Assembly: GCA_021163295.1 (NCBI GenBank)
Contig: JAGGXD010000120.1
Coordinates: 1 to 48,783, forward strand
Length of the DNA stretch: 48,783 nt
Reading direction: 5' to 3'
Source of the DNA: Bacteroidales bacterium
Lineage (GTDB): Bacteria > Bacteroidota > Bacteroidia > Bacteroidales > VadinHA17
Under the pieces are notes generated by a model. The model saw nothing but the letters and a program-made list of their open reading frames with translations, was not told where the DNA came from and did not search any database. Below are positions 26,194 through 40,739 of the stretch, one piece after another (position 1 is the first letter of the stretch; the number at the start of each line of letters is the position of its first letter). Both the position numbers and the translations under genes were made by a program.

Positions 26194-26202
26194 TATCTTT
26201 GC
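26194..26202 (+). promoter_or_regulatory. -7 promoter element of lysS
   Basis: TATCTTTGC, an exact TAnnTTTG match, 26 bases before the ATG at 26229. It overlaps the TTG (26199) that would begin the longest open frame, which argues against that start. A TTG at 26168-26170 lies 23 bases upstream, slightly wider than normal -33 spacing. Confidence 0.6.
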
Positions 26203-26228
26203 AAAAAAAATATACAAAACTGAAATTC

Positions 26229-27971
26229 ATGAGTTTAAATCACCTCTCCGAACAGGAACAGATAAGAAGAAATTCGCTGGAAGAGATCAGGAAACTGGGA
26301 ATAAATCCATATCCGGCTGAAAAATACGAGATAAATACAAGCTCAAAAGAGATTCTTAATAATTATGATCCGGATAAAGAAAATTTCCAGGATGTCAGTC
26401 TTGCAGGCCGTATAATGAGCCGCAGGATTATGGGCAATGCATCGTTTATTGAAATCCAGGACTCCGCCGGAAAGATCCAGGCCTATTTCCGGAGAGATAA
26501 TATTTGTCCTGATGAAGATAAAACCCAATACAATACCCTGTTTAAGAAGTTGCTTGATATAGGTGATATTATCGGAGTAAAAGGAAATGTTTTTAAAACG
26601 CAGGTTGGCGAAACATCTGTTAACGTCAAGGAATTCACACTTCTTAGTAAATCAATCCGCCCGTTACCCATTGTTAAAGAAAAGGGCGACAAAACGTATG
26701 ATGCATTTACCGATCCTGAACAACGGTACCGGAACCGTTCAATGGACCTTATTGTAAATCCGCATATCAAAGATGTTTTCATAAAGAGGTCAAAGATCAT
26801 ACAAACGATCCGCACGTTTCTGAACAACAAGGAATATCTTGAAGTTGAAACCCCGGTTTTACAACCAATTTACGGTGGTGCAGCAGCCCGTCCGTTTAAA
26901 ACCCACCACAATACACTTGACCAGACCCTGTACTTAAGGATTGCCGATGAGCTTTACCTGAAACGTATTATCATCGGAGGTTTTGATGGTGTTTATGAAT
27001 TTGCCAAAGATTTTCGCAATGAAGGAATGGACAGGTTTCATAACCCGGAATTTACAATGATGGAGATTTATGTAGCCTACAAAGATTATAACTGGATGAT
27101 GAAGCTGTTTGAACAGATGATCGAGAAGGTTGCTTTAGATGTACACGGTACTACTAAAGTTCAGGTGGGAGAAAACATGATTGATTTCAAAACACCATGG
27201 AAAAGGGTAACAATGTTCGAAGCAATAAAAAAATTTACCGGGGTTGACATTTCGGAAATGGATGAGAAAGAACTGGTAAAGACTGCCAAAAACCTGGGAG
27301 TTGAGATTGATGAAACAATGGGAAAAGGGAAGTTGATTGATGAGATTTTTGGAGAAACCACAGAACCTAAACTTATCCAGCCAACCTATATTATCGATTA
27401 CCCGGTTGAAATGTCACCTCTATCTAAAAAACACCGAAGTAAGGAAGGATTGGTTGAACGATTCGAAGCAATTGTAAACGGCAAAGAATTATGCAATGCT
27501 TTTTCTGAGCTTAACGATCCCATTGACCAGCGTGAGCGGTTTGAGCACCAGCTACAACTTGGGAAAAAAGGTGACGAAGAAGCAATGATAATGGACGAAG
27601 CTTTTCTGAATGCTGTTGAACTTGGGATGCCTCCGATGGCAGGACTGGGAGTTGGTATTGACAGGTTAGCCATGCTTATGACAGATTCCAACTCTATCCA
27701 GGATGTGATCTTTTTCCCGCAGATGCGACAGGAAAGTTCAAAGTTCAAAGTTCAAAGTTCAAAGGAAGATTATACCGTACTTGGTATCCCTGAGGAATGG
27801 GTAGAAGTGTTGCAGGAGTTGGGATATACCACAATTGAAAAGCTAAAAGAGGTTGAAAAGCCGGGTAAGCTGGCAAATGATTTGAATGGTTATAACAAAA
27901 AGAATAAGTTGGGGCTGAAGGGATTGAGTCCTGAGGAAGTTAAGGGGTATCTGGAGAAAATCAGGTATTAG
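26229..27971 (+). CDS. lysS: Lysyl-tRNA synthetase, class II
   Basis: Charges tRNA-Lys. From the ATG at 26229 ([14 protein letters not shown]) it has 580 residues: an N-terminal OB-fold anticodon-binding domain ([23 protein letters not shown]), then the class II core with motif 2 [20 protein letters not shown] and motif 3 [13 protein letters not shown]. The Bacteroidota-type C-terminal extension (about 65 residues) contains [18 protein letters not shown]. The linker between core and extension, [10 protein letters not shown], is encoded by a 7-bp tandem repeat. The longer frame from TTG at 26199 overlaps the promoter and is rejected. The 3' end overlaps the convergent LytTR gene by 11 bases. 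Confidence 0.95.
27733..27764 (+). repeat. Heptamer tandem array inside lysS
   Basis: AAAGTTC is repeated four times plus AAAG, within the coding region of lysS. Because 7 is not a multiple of 3, it is read in all three frames and gives [10 protein letters not shown]. It lies exactly between the conserved catalytic core and the C-terminal extension. The same word, once varied, occurs at 38387-38403. Confidence 0.95.
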
Positions 27972-28719
27972 ACAGCATAGCTTCGGAAGTCTTCTTTTTG
28001 TAGGTCCTGCTTACCGGAAGATTCATGCCCGGAACTGAAATCTGATCACGGGTAAATGATACAACCTTTTCAAGATTCACGATGAATGACCTATGAATCC
28101 TGATAAATTGTGGAGGCAACTTCCCTTCTATCCTGCTTATCCTTTCGCGTGTAATTATCTTTTGGTTATCAGTTGTTCTTATTATAATGTAATCAGACAT
28201 ACTCTCAATACAATTAATTGTGCCATAAGATATTTTCCTTGTCTGCCGGTTTGATCTAACAATAAGATGCCCGTTTGAATTCTCATTCTTCTTTGTGCTG
28301 AGGGCTTTCATCTCCTCTGCAATTTCAAGGTACTCATATACCATGTTAAAAAAGGCATTTACTATTACGGTTAAGTACAGGATTGAAGGAAAAGAATGAT
28401 ATTGTGTAATAAGGCTTTTTAGCTGATCAGGGCGATACTTTGCTAAAAGAATAAAGGCTATGAATACAATTATCATAATTATATCCAGTGAAATAATCAC
28501 AGTAAAAACTGTAAGGATTATAAAGCGACCGTATCTCTTTTTTAACAGGTAATATGGAATAAGATAATTATTGAAATACCATGAAGTAACAAGAATTACC
28601 GGAACAAGGAATGAGACAAAATAAAAAGCATTTACAAAACTGCCTGATCTGGCACCAAAAACCAGGATAAGAATAACCGAAACAAGGAGCCAGTAAATTA
28701 TATTAAATCGTCTTTTCAC
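27961..28719 (-). CDS. Membrane-bound LytTR-domain transcriptional regulator
   Basis: A regulator with four predicted membrane helices (about the first 130 residues) and a C-terminal LytTR DNA-binding domain ([21 protein letters not shown], then [17 protein letters not shown] and PVSRTYKKK). There is no receiver domain, so it may sense a membrane or small-molecule signal directly. The start is uncertain. The GTG at 28719 gives [12 protein letters not shown], a natural beginning before helix 1; a TTG at 28803 would add 28 residues of no evident family likeness. It is divergent from the ExbB-like gene at 28869 and overlaps lysS by 11 bases at its 3' end. Confidence 0.8.
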
Positions 28720-28828
28720 TCCGTAAAATTGACACCAAATTTTGTAAGATACAAGAGATGTGGTTGTTTTATCGACGAATAACCTGTTTTCAGTGGGTTT
28801 CAACCTTGCAATAAGCGATATCCTCCAC

Positions 28829-28868: not shown

Positions 28869-29243
28869 ATGTTTGATTTATTTTACCAGGGCGGTCCGCT
28901 CTTTATGGGAATTTTAACAATTTTCCTTTTTATAGTTGTTTTATTGTCAGTTTACTTTCTCTATCTGATTATCAGAAAAGAGTACAAAAGTCTTGACCTG
29001 ACATTAAAAAAGTTGAATTTCATTAAAACTACGGGTATCTATGCACTTGTAACAGGAATATTGGGTCAGTTGATCGGTCTCTATTCTGCTTTTACACATA
29101 TTGAAGCAGCCAGGGAGATATCCCCGGTAATTCTTGCCGGAGGTCTGAGGATATCATTGATAACAACAATTTATGGAATGATAATTTTCCTGATCTCTTA
29201 TTTGTTCTGGGCTGCACTTTATTATTCAGCCACAAAGAAGTAG
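28869..29243 (+). CDS. Small MotA/TolQ/ExbB-like proton-channel family protein
   Basis: A 124-residue membrane protein with three hydrophobic segments (about 14-36, 55-72, 88-118). Between the last two, the stretch GILGQLIGLYSAFTHIEAAR followed by GGLRISLITTIYGMIIFLIS matches the conserved TolQ/ExbB/MotA pattern (G-L-x-G-T-V-x-G ... GL-x-x-A-L-x-x-T-x-x-G-L). The large cytosolic loop of true ExbB is missing and no ExbD or TolR gene is adjacent. ATG start, good promoter upstream. Its divergent pairing with a LytTR regulator suggests the two are functionally linked; the role is unknown. Confidence 0.7.
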   Translation: MFDLFYQGGPLFMGILTIFLFIVVLLSVYFLYLIIRKEYKSLDLTLKKLNFIKTTGIYALVTGILGQLIGLYSAFTHIEAAREISPVILAGGLRISLITTIYGMIIFLISYLFWAALYYSATKK

Positions 29244-29321
29244 ATTCTAAAATAACCGGGCAAACGGGGTTGAGTCCGTAAAGTCGTGTTCCGACCCGTC
29301 AAGAAAGCCCTTTCAAAAAAA

Positions 29322-29329
29322 TATCTTTG
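29322..29329 (+). promoter_or_regulatory. Orphan -7-like element facing a convergent gene
   Basis: TATCTTTG, identical to the lysS and BaiN-like elements, but the only gene downstream (29352-29897) is on the opposite strand. No clear -33 box. If active, the transcript would be antisense to that gene. It may be a relic of a lost gene. Confidence 0.3.
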
Positions 29330-29351
29330 TACCCGGAGTTTATCAGGTTAC

Positions 29352-29897
29352 TTATTTCTTTTCATATACTAATGTGTTTTCTAAATCTCCATAGTCAGTG
29401 GAAGCATTCTGACTGATTGACAGAAAATTCCCATCCTCTGTAAATTTAAAAATCTCAACTAATGCAACTTCCAATTCATTTCCATCAAACTCAAACCATA
29501 TTGTAGAAGTAATCGTAAGACTTTGCTTGTCATCTGACCAGTTTACAGTCGATTTCTTTTTCGTAGTTTCGAGCATTATGTTTTCACATTCCTTACCATC
29601 CAGCGTATACATTTCTGAATAATTATAGTCTTCTCCTTCCTGTGAAGTCCCAAATCTTTCAATTGTCAATTTTTTCCCCTTTTGTTTTATTATCATTTTC
29701 GTGGCAGCCATTGTCTCTCCATATTCCGCAACATAACTTTTCCCTTCATTCAGGGTCCATTCACCTGAGAATTTCGCCTTTTTAGGTGCTGCATCCGTAA
29801 CAAGTGAGGTCATAAGGAAAACAATTAAAAATAAAATTGAGGTAACTCTCAGGCTAACTCTTTTTTCTTTGGGACAGCAATTACTTTTAATTTTCAT
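29352..29897 (-). CDS. Secreted protein of unknown function, first of a paralogous pair
   Basis: A 181-residue exported protein with a basic N-terminus and signal segment at about 17-36 (SILFLIVFLMTSLVTDA). The mature part is strand-rich, with FSGEWTLNEGKS, KKLTIERFG, YTLDGKEC, KKKSTVNWSDDKQSLTIT and a last strand TLVYEKK. The product of 32351-32887 has the same blocks in the same order (FSGEWFFNESKS, NNLTIERLQ, LTLDGKES, KSTATWSDNGKTLTIK, MVYDKK), so the two are paralogues. They flank an ECF sigma operon on the other strand. The fold may be lipocalin-like; function unknown. Confidence 0.7.
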   Translation of the reverse strand: MKIKSNCCPKEKRVSLRVTSILFLIVFLMTSLVTDAAPKKAKFSGEWTLNEGKSYVAEYGETMAATKMIIKQKGKKLTIERFGTSQEGEDYNYSEMYTLDGKECENIMLETTKKKSTVNWSDDKQSLTITSTIWFEFDGNELEVALVEIFKFTEDGNFLSISQNASTDYGDLENTLVYEKK

Positions 29898-30027
29898 TTT
29901 CTAATTTCTTTAGTTTAACAATAAGATAAAAGTAATTTAATTCGATGTAAAAAATAGCAAAAACCACTAAATTGTTTTTTACCTTGCCTAAAAATAATCG
30001 TATTATTAATAACTGAAAAGATTTAAT

Positions 30028-30573
30028 TTGGACACAAAAGATATAATCAAATCCAGTATCATCAGGGATGATGCCGCTTTCAGAAAACTTATTGACAGAT
30101 ATTCTGACTTTGCATTCAGTGTTGCTTTCAGAATAATGAATGATGAGGAAGAGTCGAAAGATATTATACAGGAATCGTTTATCACAGTCTGGAATAAAAT
30201 TGGGGGTTTCAATACCGAAAAGAATTTCAGCAACTGGCTTTACAGGATCATTGTAAATAAATGCTATGATTCACTTAGAAAGAGGAAAAGAATGCAACTG
30301 ATCTATCCCGATGCAAACAGTTGGAATCTCCCGGGTATATTTAGTGATAGTAATCCGGACAAAAAAATGGATAATGAAGAGATTGGTAAGATTATACGCC
30401 TGTTAACAAACAGGTTAAGCACAAAACAAAGGGTTGTATTTGTTTTGAGTGAACTTGAAGAACTCTCGCATGAGGATATTTCTGAAATAACAGGGATGGC
30501 AAAGACATCAATAAAAAGCAACCTTAACCATGCCCGGCGAAAGATTGGTGAAATGATAAAAAAATATATCTGA
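30028..30573 (+). CDS. ECF-type RNA polymerase sigma factor
   Basis: A 181-residue sigma-70 family factor. Region 2: LIDRYSDFAFSVAFRIMNDEEESKDIIQESFITVWNKI at about residues 22-59, with NWLYRIIVNKCYDSLRKRK after it. Region 4: LSTKQRVVFVLSELEELSHEDISEITGMAKTSIKSNLNHARRKI at about 130-173. The start is TTG at 30028, since the next ATG is codon 37, inside region 2. A gene for a single-pass protein starts three bases after the stop, the usual position of an anti-sigma factor. It is not of the FecI type of the 19617 gene. Confidence 0.9.
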   Translation: MDTKDIIKSSIIRDDAAFRKLIDRYSDFAFSVAFRIMNDEEESKDIIQESFITVWNKIGGFNTEKNFSNWLYRIIVNKCYDSLRKRKRMQLIYPDANSWNLPGIFSDSNPDKKMDNEEIGKIIRLLTNRLSTKQRVVFVLSELEELSHEDISEITGMAKTSIKSNLNHARRKIGEMIKKYI

Positions 30574-30575
30574 CA

Positions 30576-31130
30576 ATGAATAATATCAATAAATATTCCA
30601 AATTAATTGAGGTGCTTAAGGGGAACAAACCTGTTTTAGCCAACAAAGAAAAATTGACTGATAATATCATGAAAAGGATTCAGCAGCCGGTTGAAAAATC
30701 TACTTTTCAGGAAAAGCTGGGTAATTACCTTTTTGGCTGGGCGGAAATTGGCTGGATACGAGGAACAATGGCAATTGCCGCTACGGTTTTTATCGGATTC
30801 TTTATTGTTCAACAGGTTATAATAAATGATCGGATCAATACTCTTGAGAAACAATTAATAAGGACAGTAAATTCAATTAATACTCATGAACCGGATCTGG
30901 GAATAATACAGAAAGTCCTCCTCAATATGGTTGCTAAAGATCAAATAGCAGGAGATAGTATTACTATTTCAAGATCTGACCTGGAAGAGCTGCTGAACTC
31001 TTACCTTGAATTGAAGAAAGACTACGATAAAATGGATAAAAACAGGGATGTTGAATCATATATACAGAATAAGATCAGAAAAAACCTTAAGAAAGGTGAT
31101 AGTGAAAATGAATCAGAACTAAAACTTTAA
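30576..31130 (+). CDS. Putative single-pass anti-sigma factor
   Basis: A 184-residue protein with a cytosolic part of about 62 residues, one membrane helix at about 63-83 (GTMAIAATVFIGFFIVQQVII), and a periplasmic part rich in charged helices. No zinc-binding ZAS motif (HxxxCxxC) is seen. The assignment as anti-sigma factor rests on position, topology and tight spacing (three bases after the sigma gene, four before the next). ATG start. Confidence 0.65.
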   Translation: MNNINKYSKLIEVLKGNKPVLANKEKLTDNIMKRIQQPVEKSTFQEKLGNYLFGWAEIGWIRGTMAIAATVFIGFFIVQQVIINDRINTLEKQLIRTVNSINTHEPDLGIIQKVLLNMVAKDQIAGDSITISRSDLEELLNSYLELKKDYDKMDKNRDVESYIQNKIRKNLKKGDSENESELKL

Positions 31131-31134
31131 AGCT

Positions 31135-32301
31135 ATGAAACGGAAAATTAAAATAACACTCACATTTCTCTCCATGGTAATACTCTTCTCATGCGGTTAT
31201 GAAACCCGCGTAATTAATACAGTTCATAAAGACGGGTCAGTTACCAGAAAAGTTACTATGAAAACCAGCGACGAAAAATTTAAACCCAAAAAATACAGGG
31301 TCCCGGTTGACAGTACATGGCAAATCCAAATTGATACAGAGGTAAATGAAGCAGGCGACACATCAAGGATACTAACAGCGGAAAAACATTTCGCAAATGT
31401 GGATGAGATAAACGAAGAGTATTTAATCGATAAAGGCAGTAACAAGCATCTGAAAAGAAAAGCCAGTTTTTCAAAAAGCTTCAAATGGTTTACTACCGTT
31501 TTCAGGTATAGTGAAACAGTTGGAAAGGTCATGACTGTTACCTGTCCGGCATCAGATTTTTTAACTAATGAAGAGCTTAAATTTTTCTATTTGCCCGGTA
31601 ATGTTAAGACAGAAATAAAAAACGGGACTGATAGTCTTAAATATAAAGCATTATCAGATACTGTTGATATGAAATCTGAGATCTGGTTATGGACAGGTTT
31701 TGTAAGGCAATGGATTGAAATTTTCTATGATAGGTTTGGCAACCATCCTGATCTGACTATTAACAAGGAAGAGATGTTATCAAAAGAACCGGATTTTGTC
31801 AATCAAATTATTGAATTTGAACAAGCTGATGAAGAATATGAAGAAGAATTCCTTCAAGATCTTGAAGAAGAAGGCTTTGATGAAGAGACTTTACAAAGTC
31901 TTGAAAAAGAAGGAAAAAAGGACGATGTAGATGATATTGAAATTTTAGTCACCTCTGTACTGGGCAGTAATTTTTATTCCTCCTTCACCACTGAAATTGA
32001 CAGTGCCATGTCGGTACTGGAAAATATGACTGAACCTTACTTTTCTACAGACAATTACGACATAGAGATCAGAATGCCGGGCAATATCATCGCATCGAGT
32101 GGATATGTTAATACAGTCCCGGATTCTGAAAACAGTACAGGTATCCTCTGGACAGTACAAGGGGATTATTTTCTGACCCAACAATATGAAATGTGGGCTG
32201 AATCACAAGTTAACAATTACTGGGCCTGGATTATTACCGCTCTTTTTATTCTTTTCGTTGTTACCGGATTTGTGATTCGTTCTAAAAAAGAAAAGGATTG
32301 A
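31135..32301 (+). CDS. Lipoprotein with an additional C-terminal membrane anchor
   Basis: A 388-residue exported protein. The signal peptide ends in a lipobox (LFSC, Cys20). The N-terminal part GYETRVINTVHKDGSVTRKVTMKT recalls the LppM/DUF3153 pattern, as does MPGNIIASSGYV followed by GILWTVQGDYFL near the C-terminus. Residues about 233-268 are strongly acidic. The protein ends in a membrane helix (WAWIITALFILFVVTGFVI) and a basic tail (RSKKEKD). It is the third gene of the sigma/anti-sigma operon, starting four bases after the second, so it may be the signal receiver. The LppM comparison is from pattern only. Confidence 0.65.
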   Translation: MKRKIKITLTFLSMVILFSCGYETRVINTVHKDGSVTRKVTMKTSDEKFKPKKYRVPVDSTWQIQIDTEVNEAGDTSRILTAEKHFANVDEINEEYLIDKGSNKHLKRKASFSKSFKWFTTVFRYSETVGKVMTVTCPASDFLTNEELKFFYLPGNVKTEIKNGTDSLKYKALSDTVDMKSEIWLWTGFVRQWIEIFYDRFGNHPDLTINKEEMLSKEPDFVNQIIEFEQADEEYEEEFLQDLEEEGFDEETLQSLEKEGKKDDVDDIEILVTSVLGSNFYSSFTTEIDSAMSVLENMTEPYFSTDNYDIEIRMPGNIIASSGYVNTVPDSENSTGILWTVQGDYFLTQQYEMWAESQVNNYWAWIITALFILFVVTGFVIRSKKEKD

Positions 32302-32350
32302 ATCAGGATAGTGGTGCTCCGACATGAGTTCAGAGTACGACTTAACAGGA

Positions 32351-32887
32351 TTATTTCTTATCATAAACCATAGTGGCTTTTCGTTCACCCCTTGGTGTAG
32401 AAGAAGAAGATTCAATAGAAAGAATTTTACCTCCGCCGGAAAGTTTCCATTGATCAACACTTTTCATCTCCATAGTTTCACCACCTCTGTCAAAAGCCAT
32501 TGTTGATTTAATTGTCAGGGTCTTTCCATTATCAGACCAGGTTGCAGTTGATTTTCTTGTTCCTCTGCGGGCAGTATTTTTACTTTCCTTACCATCCAGT
32601 GTCAGCTTCTGTGTTATTTTCATTTCCTGTCCGTCGCGTCCTGTTTGAAGCCTTTCAATAGTAAGATTATTCCCTTCCTGCTTTACAGTTAATTTTAATG
32701 AAGTTTGAAATCTTCCTTCACCCATATCACTCTTTGATTCATTAAAAAACCACTCACCTGAAAAATCAACTTTTCCTTCCTGAGCAAATGAATTCATATT
32801 TACTAAAAAAGAAACTAAAAAGGCAATTGTAAATAATTGTACAGAATTTCTTAAGAAATTTGGATAGAGACTTTGTTTTTGCTTCAT
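32351..32887 (-). CDS. Secreted protein of unknown function, second of a paralogous pair
   Basis: A 178-residue exported protein with a signal peptide ending near residue 35 (VNMNSFAQ). The mature part has FSGEWFFNESKSD, LKLTVKQEGNNLTIERL, LTLDGKESKN, KSTATWSDNGKTLTIKSTMAF and a final MVYDKK. These blocks match the 29352-29897 product in order and spacing. It is convergent with the sigma/anti-sigma/lipoprotein operon, 49 bases from its end. ATG start. No known function; a periplasmic binding or stress protein controlled by the neighbouring sigma factor is a guess. Confidence 0.7.
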   Translation of the reverse strand: MKQKQSLYPNFLRNSVQLFTIAFLVSFLVNMNSFAQEGKVDFSGEWFFNESKSDMGEGRFQTSLKLTVKQEGNNLTIERLQTGRDGQEMKITQKLTLDGKESKNTARRGTRKSTATWSDNGKTLTIKSTMAFDRGGETMEMKSVDQWKLSGGGKILSIESSSSTPRGERKATMVYDKK

Positions 32888-33091
32888 GGCATTAATTTTT
32901 ATTGAGGTTAAATATATTAGACAAAAATAGCAGTTTATTTATTCCATCATACTACTTTTTTTTTAGTCCTTCAGGCTAATACGTAGTTATTTTGGAATTA
33001 TTCCCTTTATTCCTTCTTTTAAAAATACTGCTTTAATGCAACAAAACATAATTTTAACCGTCTTTAGTAAAAGAACCAAAAATTAATAATT

Positions 33092-33808
33092 ATGAAAACG
33101 TCAAAATTCATCTCATTAATTCTTGTAATTGTATTTACAACAAGTGCATTCGGACAAATCAGGCCCAGAGTTACCGGCTCAGGAAAAGTTGTATCTGAAG
33201 ATCGAAAGGCCGGATACTTTAATGCTGTTAAGGTAAGTTCGGGTATAGATGTTTACCTGACCCAGGGACAAAAGGAAAGTATTAGGGTGGAAGCTGATGA
33301 CAATCTTCATGAGTATATTGCAACAGAAATCAAGGACAATACACTTAAAGTTTATAGCAAAGCGAATATTCGGAAAGCAGAAGCAAAAAAAGTGTACGTT
33401 ACCATAAAAGATGTGGAAAAGTTATCTGCTTCGAGTGCAGGTGATCTGTTTGGAGAAACATTGATAAAAACGGATGAATTGTATCTTTCAGTAAGCAGTG
33501 CCGGAGATATTAAGTTAAATGTTAAAGTTAACAAACTCAGATGCAAAATAAGCAGTTCGGGAGATATCAAGATTGATGGTGTCGCTGATGAACTGGAAGC
33601 TGACCTTAGCAGTGCAGGCGATCTTAAGGCTTTTGGACTTGAAACCCGTATTGCTGATGTTTCCGTTTCAAGTGCCGGGGATGCAATGATCACTGTAACG
33701 GAAGAACTTCGTGCCCGCGCCAGTAGCGCCGGTGATGTTTATTACAAGGGTAATCCAAAACAGGTAAATGCACATTCTTCAAGCGCAGGTGGTATTCATA
33801 AAAAGTAA
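33092..33808 (+). CDS. Head-GIN domain (DUF2807) secreted protein
   Basis: A 238-residue exported protein with a signal peptide to about residue 21. The head opens with FNAVKVSSGIDVYLTQGQ, typical of DUF2807. A repetitive beta-helix follows, with seven copies of SS[A/S]G[D/G] spaced about 15-26 residues apart (SSAGDLFG, SSAGDIKL, SSSGDIKI, SSAGDLKA, SSAGDAMI, SSAGDVYY, SSAGGIHK). Such proteins are common in Bacteroidota, often beside regulators, with no defined biochemical role. ATG start. An intrinsic terminator follows at 33880-33904. Confidence 0.85.
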   Translation: MKTSKFISLILVIVFTTSAFGQIRPRVTGSGKVVSEDRKAGYFNAVKVSSGIDVYLTQGQKESIRVEADDNLHEYIATEIKDNTLKVYSKANIRKAEAKKVYVTIKDVEKLSASSAGDLFGETLIKTDELYLSVSSAGDIKLNVKVNKLRCKISSSGDIKIDGVADELEADLSSAGDLKAFGLETRIADVSVSSAGDAMITVTEELRARASSAGDVYYKGNPKQVNAHSSSAGGIHKK

Positions 33809-39827: not shown

Positions 39828-40739
39828 ATGTCAATAAATCCAAGAAATAAGGGGTATCTTTTTGCATTAGGAGCATCATTTGCCCTGGCAAATTCATTTG
39901 TATTCAGCAAAGCTGCTCTAATGGAAATCCAAATGGTTCAGTTTGGTGTAGTCTGGTTCGGCATGGGATTAGTCTGGAACTCAATTTATATCATATACCG
40001 TAAAAGGAAACTAACAACAATACGCGGAAAAGGCTTATGGGTAAATATTGTTATTGCAATACTTGAGGCATTGGCAACAGGACTATTCTACATTGCCATC
40101 AATAAAATGGAAAATCCTGCAATTGTTTCCTTTATTGGTAATATTGGACCGGTTTTTGTCACGATTCTTGGAATCACCCTTCTGAAAGAAAGATTTAACC
40201 GGGTTGAAATAGCAGGAATACTTATTGCTATTGGTGGCCTTTTTCTTATAAACTATAATCCTTCCTTCACCTGGAAAAATATGTTTCTTGAAGGGACTGT
40301 ATATGTTGTCCTTGCTTCATTTTTCTTTTCCATTGCAGCCATTATTGCCAGAAAATATAATAACTATATCGAAGGGTCGGAGTTATCATTCGTCCGTGTA
40401 TTACTGTTATTCGTTTCATTTGTAATTCTTTTTCTTTTCTCATCCTCTGATTTAGAAATCTCATCCCGCGCCTTAATTAATATGTCAATAGGCTCAGTAC
40501 TGGAAACACTTATTACAATTGTTCTTGCATACGAAGCATTCAAGTATATTGAAGCAACAAGAAACTCACTTGTACTCAGCACAAGAAGTTTGTTTGTGTT
40601 ATTAAGCGCCTATTTGTATTTTCATCTTTTTCCCGACACATTCCAGGTAATGGGAGGATTGCTTACAATTGTTGGGGTAGTTGCTATAACTTCAGGGCAA
40701 ATGCTTTTAAAGAAAAAAGTAACCAAAAATAAAGCATAA
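39828..40739 (+). CDS. EamA/DMT-family transporter
   Basis: A 303-residue inner-membrane protein with about ten helices arranged as two EamA repeats (first half with ENPAIVSFIGNIGPVFVTIL and LKERF; second half with YIEATRNSLVLSTRSLFVLLSAY). The family exports or imports metabolites such as amino acids or nucleotide sugars; the substrate cannot be told. ATG start five bases after the pgi stop, so probably co-transcribed. A degenerate heptamer array begins 12 bases after the stop. Confidence 0.85.
   Translation: MSINPRNKGYLFALGASFALANSFVFSKAALMEIQMVQFGVVWFGMGLVWNSIYIIYRKRKLTTIRGKGLWVNIVIAILEALATGLFYIAINKMENPAIVSFIGNIGPVFVTILGITLLKERFNRVEIAGILIAIGGLFLINYNPSFTWKNMFLEGTVYVVLASFFFSIAAIIARKYNNYIEGSELSFVRVLLLFVSFVILFLFSSSDLEISSRALINMSIGSVLETLITIVLAYEAFKYIEATRNSLVLSTRSLFVLLSAYLYFHLFPDTFQVMGGLLTIVGVVAITSGQMLLKKKVTKNKA

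Follow-up and report, generated by a model that had tools for sequence, protein, structure and literature searches.

Whether a sigma factor operon and the two related genes that bracket it act as one regulatory unit is the question raised by a locus in contig JAGGXD010000120.1 of a Bacteroidales bacterium (assembly GCA_021163295.1), of which positions 1 to 48,783 were analysed (hereafter the window). Here two minus-strand genes for secreted proteins, SECa and SECb, lie on either side of a plus-strand operon that encodes an extracytoplasmic function (ECF) sigma factor, a putative anti-sigma factor and a lipoprotein. The operon (30028-32301) appears to stand by itself: with a probability that we put at about 0.55, it is a self-contained, self-controlling envelope module and the lipoprotein is most likely its output. 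The bracket is local to this genome. The features of the locus are as follows.

29352..29897, minus strand: SECa, left flanking secreted protein of 181 amino acids (aa), paralogue of SECb; probably a chance neighbour of the operon
29975..30005, plus strand: predicted ECF self-promoter, TTTTTTACC-N15-CGTATTA, ending 22 nt before the sigma start codon; predicted from conservation
30028..30573, plus strand: ECF sigma factor of 181 aa that starts with TTG and matches the Pfam models of regions 2 and 4
30576..31130, plus strand: predicted anti-sigma factor of 184 aa with one membrane pass; the zinc motif is missing, as is the N-terminal part of the class I domain
31135..32301, plus strand: doubly anchored lipoprotein, 388 aa, lipobox Cys20, with an AlphaFold2 model that modestly matches LppM
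32351..32887, minus strand: SECb, right flanking secreted protein, 178 aa, predicted fatty-acid-binding-protein-like barrel; a neighbour

The genes, strands and positions are those given in a preliminary description of the window, and its labels for the operon products (sigma, putative anti-sigma and lipoprotein) hold up. The 30028 product matches Sigma70_r2 (PF04542) at 67.0 bits (cut-off 24) and Sigma70_r4_2 (PF08281) at 51.2 bits (cut-off 25.7), and with regions 2 and 4, no larger domains and 181 aa it has the composition of an ECF sigma-70 factor. Pfam and NCBIfam gave nothing above the curated cut-offs for the anti-sigma factor, the lipoprotein or the secreted proteins of the window. The three operon genes are separated by 2 nt (sigma/anti-sigma) and 4 nt (anti-sigma/lipoprotein). 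FecI/FecR signalling is not indicated, with no FecR match in the window protein or in the families listed for 18 relatives, and no TonB-dependent receptor was seen among the four flanking genes scanned at the locus.

The evidence for self-control lies upstream of the sigma gene. Among close relatives that carry the same three genes (close triads), 33 of 34 loci hold the pattern TTTTTTACC-N15-CGTmTTA with a score of 13 to 16 out of 16, and its -10 end falls 12-25 nt before the called sigma start codon. The 34 were drawn from 40 close triads, leaving out L101, which starts at a contig edge, and L114, L121, L122, L135 and L140, whose called start looked wrong. A looser form of the pattern, counted over 39 of the 40 close triads, is present in 38 of these and in 17 of 22 distant triads, against means of 0.24 and 0.30 in mononucleotide shuffles. 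In the window the promoter at 29975-30005 scores 26.1 with a position weight matrix (PWM) derived from the relatives, the next best site reaching 12.4, and the 31-base pattern with zero mismatches has a single match in the whole genome, at these coordinates. The conservation of this site suggests that the ECF sigma factor transcribes its own operon from it. Under the first-start rule of the caller of open reading frames (ORFs), TTG is the start codon of the sigma gene in 35 of 40 close triads and in 5 of 23 distant ones; such a weak start codon could limit the supply of sigma factor.

Searches beyond the operon returned little. The short form TTTACC-N15-CGTmTT has two matches in the genome, as does its reversed control: one at the operon and one at 40019-40045 (minus strand), which falls inside an EamA-type gene (39828-40739). 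Over 59 family genomes, the own genome included, the exact 29-base form gives 16 matches, at most one per genome. Twelve of them, the window's included, directly precede this sigma gene; in 11 all three genes are in view, and in L223 the sigma and anti-sigma genes. As the reversed control pattern gives 15 matches, the remaining four are at background. A relaxed scan of the own genome with 3 mismatches yielded 31 matches versus 73 for the reversed control and is thus uninformative beyond the operon. A scan of 29200-33200 for housekeeping promoters found 24 sites versus 14.6 in shuffles; it was not used for any reading.

The three genes are also kept together over long evolutionary distances. 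Relatives of the sigma factor and of SECb were searched in 60 genomes (the own genome and 59 others), and 40 neighbourhoods were compared. The 17 loci that match the sigma factor best (L061-L077) all have the sigma, anti-sigma and lipoprotein genes together, although the lipoprotein match is incomplete in L061 and L064, and the anti-sigma gene of L076 and L077 was seen as an ORF and not by tblastn. The lipoprotein alignment was then scanned against named genomes with one peptide pattern, giving 251 relatives, the best 80 of which were kept (L101-L180); this set favours members that carry the motif. A sigma gene lies upstream in 67 of these 80 loci, in 63 as a called ORF within three genes and in L104, L105, L145 and L172 by tblastn, whereas L130, L153, L174 and L180 end too near the lipoprotein gene to tell. 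The other nine (L112, L116, L124, L132, L141, L147, L148, L150 and L173) carry the lipoprotein without an adjacent sigma gene; the operon promoter pattern is absent from them within 1.5 kb, and L116 retains an anti-sigma fragment. The records of the 80 loci are mostly titled Bacteroidales, Bacteroidia or Bacteroidetes, and also include Cytophagales, Ignavibacteriota, Chlorobiota-labelled and KSB1 entries. Among 295 genomes drawn from the order, own included, the lipoprotein is found at E 1e-6 in 25. By sequence, the triad is a conserved module that occurs in many environmental bacteria.

Three details of these loci may be recorded here. One triad record, L144, is titled Actinomycetota; its lipoprotein falls within a Bacteroidales group on the tree, and the label is probably a binning error. 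Directly behind the lipoprotein gene, 39 of the 80 named loci (between L110 and L152) carry another ECF sigma gene, encoded on the opposite strand. The nine loci L067-L075 also have such a gene, and two conserved genes follow it there, which in L067 are of the abhydrolase and GSCFA types.

What the operon would deliver to the envelope is suggested by the lipoprotein. It carries a lipobox (LFSC20) and a C-terminal membrane segment at residues ~363-381, and both traits recur in all 76 aligned members (the window protein and 75 of 78 long ORFs; L109, L166 and L173 were left out for their odd starts). The AlphaFold2 model, with a predicted local distance difference test (pLDDT) score of 91.7, comprises a beta domain (22-144 and 305-360), a helical insertion (145-304) and a membrane helix (362-387). 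For both Foldseek and VIA the top match is LppM of Mycobacterium tuberculosis (Rv2171; 2nc8), a lipoprotein with a similar beta fold: Foldseek gives E 2.2e-3 and a probability of 1.00, and VIA gives Z 9.5, a root-mean-square deviation (rmsd) of 4.0, 140 of 171 residues and 9% identity, with Z 7.1 for the next row. The Pfam family that most members touch is likewise LppM (PF21946), matched by 7 of 76 at E up to 1, the best at 0.01. Searched against PDB sequences with a limit of E 10, the lipoprotein profile gave 15 matches, the best at 0.13; LppM was absent from them. The window protein departs from LppM in its helical insertion of ~160 residues, its low identity and its place in an operon with sigma and anti-sigma genes. 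We take LppM to carry a C-terminal membrane helix as well. With the lipobox cysteine in place, a modest match of the beta fold and a Pfam score below the cut-off, the protein is best called LppM-like rather than a member of the LppM family. LppM binds phosphatidyl-myo-inositol mannoside, as stated in a review (PMC6151718).

The second protein has one membrane segment (residues ~65-83) followed by ~100 residues, and its gene starts 2 nt after the sigma gene. The zinc motif HxxxCxxC is absent in 40 of 40 close triads and present in 14 of 22 distant ones, and Pfam zf-HC2 matches 2 of 18 rows in the first set of relatives. When profiles of the short and the zinc-bearing forms are aligned with hhalign, they match with a probability of 99.1 over 168 columns, and the first aligned pair is residue 2 of the window protein with L154 residue 41, which lies beyond the zinc motif of L154. 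In addition to this homology to the class I anti-sigma domain (ASDI), the protein thus has the membrane helix and the gene position of such factors, and by the profile alignment it lacks the first part of the three-helix bundle that, with helix 4, makes up the domain. The gene for the short form follows the sigma gene by 1-6 nt in 25 of 40 close triads and overlaps it in 14, and ahead of its start a median of 5 more in-frame codons are open (range 0-33); the few open codons and the tight spacing make a hidden N-terminus unlikely. On the lipoprotein tree the short form falls into two groups, implying 2 changes; the starred branches would allow a single change, but this is seen in 4% of 200 bootstrap trees. 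According to PMC7406223, sigma region 4 is contacted by helix 1 and sigma region 2 by helix 4 in known ASDI pairs. Of this domain, we infer, no more than helix 4 and the end of helix 3 remains in the window protein.

In agreement with these features, the following course of events may be proposed. The ECF sigma factor would read the 29975-30005 promoter and transcribe its own operon, as conservation suggests. The reduced anti-sigma factor, made up of the end of helix 3 and the sigma-2-binding helix 4, a membrane helix and a periplasmic arm, would by homology hold the sigma factor at the inner membrane. The lipoprotein, presumably tethered by its N-terminal lipid and its C-terminal helix, would expose to the periplasm a domain that is LppM-like and probably binds lipid. 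More lipoprotein would be made when a signal from the envelope or from lipids loosens the anti-sigma factor, and the lipoprotein perhaps feeds back on the anti-sigma factor. As no other good promoter for this sigma factor was found in the genome, the lipoprotein is its most likely output, and an effector role also suits the nine loci in which the lipoprotein persists with no sigma gene beside it. The operon, the conserved promoter, the membrane topology signals and the homology of the parts can be read directly from the sequence; transcription of the operon by its own sigma factor, the hold of the anti-sigma factor on it, the signal, the feedback and the lipoprotein as main product are proposals. 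Tentatively, one may go further and picture an ECF module, spread over several phyla, that regulates essentially only itself, with a doubly membrane-anchored, LppM-like, lipid-binding lipoprotein as both output and feedback sensor and an anti-sigma factor whittled down to the sigma-2-binding helix.

A number of points weigh against the reading of the operon as a self-contained module with the lipoprotein as output. On the structural side, the Foldseek TM-scores to LppM are only 0.24 and 0.44 and there is no match at E <=1e-3, the VIA Z of 9.5 stands against the 7 to 8 that is typical for models without clear relatives, and the PF21946 cut-off is not reached, the window member being absent from the seven weak matches. 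The lipid binding of the lipoprotein, if probable, is carried over by analogy from one mycobacterial protein. On the promoter side, the exact form is found in only 8 of the relatives' 17 triads, the others deviating by at least 1 base; the contig of one relative (G004) ends 13 nt before the sigma start. As the strict pattern misses such targets, true but weaker sites elsewhere would be missed too, and the draft genome, in 272 contigs, is 96.6% complete. The conserved motif might also be bound by another sigma factor, and the nine loci without a sigma gene, among them L116 with its anti-sigma fragment, could be decaying modules.

Of the other explanations, the one that survives best, although we consider it doubtful, keeps the operon and inverts the role of its third gene. 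The lipoprotein would be a sensor or co-anti-sigma factor that binds a periplasmic lipid and holds or releases the anti-sigma factor, and the real targets would have weak or divergent promoters. In favour of this, the lipoprotein is co-operonic with sigma and anti-sigma genes over several phyla and has a membrane anchor at each end, beside a partner that crosses the membrane once, and an anti-sigma factor that has lost its N-terminal part could need a third partner. These points are opposed by the persistence of the lipoprotein in nine loci without an adjacent sigma gene and by the strict patterns, which give no second site above background. The lipoprotein may nevertheless be a sensor as well as an output.

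It is improbable, in our view, that the second gene encodes a structural partner of the lipoprotein instead of an anti-sigma factor, the sigma factor being controlled otherwise. The missing Pfam or NCBIfam anti-sigma match and the uniform loss of the zinc motif in the close relatives would fit such a role; the same gene position and the profile homology to the zinc-type anti-sigma factors of distant triads speak against it.

The flanking proteins themselves are clearly related, as had been proposed: SECa and SECb align over their full length with 39% identity (E 4e-39, a single comparison), and the N-termini of both are hydrophobic. The own genome encodes one more, less similar paralogue on a different contig (G000:C84; 28% identity, E 3e-16); the surrounding 9 kb that was retrieved contains no ECF sigma ORF. 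A SECb model built from two sequences (pLDDT 77) forms the ten-stranded antiparallel barrel of the fatty-acid-binding protein (FABP)/calycin type, with a Foldseek E of 1.1e-4 to a bile-acid-binding protein (TM-scores 0.48 and 0.63) and a VIA Z of 15.1 to the FABP type (rmsd 2.5, 115 aligned). Weak matches of the SEC profile to the PDB agree with this, 9 of 10 being FABP or cellular retinoic-acid-binding proteins (CRABP; best E 0.077). Judged by the model, the flanking proteins are probably secreted carriers of small ligands.

The preliminary description went on to suggest that the pair is the regulon of the sigma operon or supplies its ligands, a proposal that can be followed through neighbourhoods, promoters and co-occurrence. 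The bracket is not repeated in the relatives: no SEC-family gene was found in any of 19 sigma-side loci (209 kb, made up of the 17 triads plus two loci whose sigma gene is a paralogue, one of these from the own genome), none of 21 SEC-side loci (248 kb, in 20 of which the ORF caller recovered the SEC gene) holds an ECF sigma ORF, and none of the 80 named lipoprotein loci (up to 13 kb each) holds a SEC-family ORF. In G009, the only single-contig genome of the 60 (68% complete), the sigma gene at 648,518 and the SEC gene at 836,980 are 188 kb apart. SEC genes without the operon, which the preliminary description had named as the finding that would count against it, occur in G005, G003, G019, G028 and others, and the operon without SEC genes is found as well. 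In G019 (74% complete) a SECb fragment, a full SECb and a SECa 77% identical to that of the window lie within 13 kb of one contig, 4 kb before a DUF2807 gene, and the 20 kb retrieved there contains no sigma ORF. Among 35 family relatives, 6 have both the triad and SEC genes, 12 the triad only, 10 SEC only and 7 neither (odds ratio 0.35, Fisher p 0.18; G023 counted as a triad on its lipoprotein alone), a count blurred by incomplete genomes.

The upstream regions of the three transcription units give a similar picture. A motif common to 29897, 30028 and 32887 was looked for, and the operon promoter is at neither SEC gene: within 200 nt upstream the best PWM score is 26.1 for the operon, 2.8 for SECa (with a 17-nt spacer) and -3.1 for SECb. 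The best scores in 400 random 200-mers of the window have a median of -4.3, a 90% quantile of 2.2, which SECa just exceeds, and a 99% quantile of 8.9. The SECa upstream region contains a block, TTTTTTACA..CGAATTA..ATTACTTTTAT, that is conserved with G019 and whose first half resembles the operon -35. Since the best SECa site lies inside this conserved block it may be SECa's own promoter, and the block may be the promoter of a different regulator. A block upstream of SECb is conserved too and differs from that of SECa. The SECa block, in the form TTTTTTACA-(T/A)-CGAATTA..., is seen at window 29922-29954 (minus strand) and, in another genus, in L082 upstream of 12793.

Within the genus, SECb seems to be an old neighbour of the triad, as judged by combining contigs of two species. 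In G005, of the same genus and 98% complete, the genes beside SECb (DUF2807 and VPS10-type) are retained and the stretch next to SECb has no triad, the best sigma match of that genome being only E 2.2e-22. In G004 a gene of the 3-keto-disaccharide hydrolase type comes after the triad, and its relative in G005 adjoins SECb. The bracket in this genome, the apparent genus-level proximity of SECb and the -35-like half of the SECa block speak for the regulon or ligand proposal. The separate neighbourhoods, the absence of operon-type promoters and the lack of positive co-occurrence speak against it, and on these we reject it as very unlikely. The SEC genes are probably chance neighbours; the predicted barrels form a family of their own, of which some relatives carry more than one member, and are probably not part of the operon module.

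Some observations concern the surroundings of the locus. To the left of SECa lie a LytTR-domain membrane protein (27961-28803, minus strand) and a short MotA/ExbB-type protein (28869-29243, plus strand), neither of which was found by tblastn in the triad loci L061-L077. A lysyl-tRNA synthetase (LysS)-type ORF at window 26199-27971, named from its sequence, has a C-terminal extension, a 31-residue piece of which recurs alone in L062:1644-1736 and L083:2100-2192. In the genus (L061, L062, L063 and L083), the interval between the LysS-type and DUF2807 genes holds HipBA-like, AbiEii-like, DUF4382 and LVIVD/LRR-repeat genes, depending on the species; the HipBA-like and AbiEii-like genes mark the interval as variable.

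The operon may be set beside known systems. Like the zinc-type (zf-HC2) ASDI pairs treated in PMC7406223, it has a membrane anti-sigma gene directly after the ECF sigma gene; unlike in these, both the zinc motif and some 40 residues at the start are missing in the window lineage, such that only the sigma-2-binding end would remain, and the operon has a third gene for a lipoprotein. Like EcfO-Reo and Dma/Das of Bacteroides, it is a Bacteroidota ECF pair tied to the envelope, and dma2 lies in a three-gene operon, among the most induced upon dma2 deletion (PMC13088901 and PMC13114119). The Dma/Reo anti-sigma factors of the same sources have a long tether and an outer-membrane beta-barrel, for which the window protein, with 184 aa and ~100 residues after the membrane helix, is too short. 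CirY/CirZ of Phocaeicola vulgatus also form an ECF pair with a co-transcribed envelope protein, which there is a Spy chaperone (PMC13114119) and here the LppM-like lipoprotein. Open-access literature yielded no paper on an LppM-type gene beside a sigma factor and, by titles and abstract openings, nothing on this triad, which given the open-access scope is weak evidence.

The features of interest in the triad are hence the shortened anti-sigma factor and the conserved LppM-like third gene, and its very clear promoter makes the sigma circuit directly testable. The locus also illustrates that a striking gene bracket can be a species-level accident. An unassigned, widely distributed lipoprotein family (251 relatives with one pattern) becomes linked to an LppM-like fold and a sigma circuit. 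According to PMC7406223, a class I anti-sigma domain accompanies only 6% of ECF sigma factors in Bacteroidetes versus 32% on average. One route to this figure is suggested here, namely that the anti-sigma factor is present and has lost its recognisable N-terminal part; if the anti-sigma factor has indeed been whittled down in this way, it would partly explain the scarcity of class I domains beside the ECF sigma factors of Bacteroidetes.

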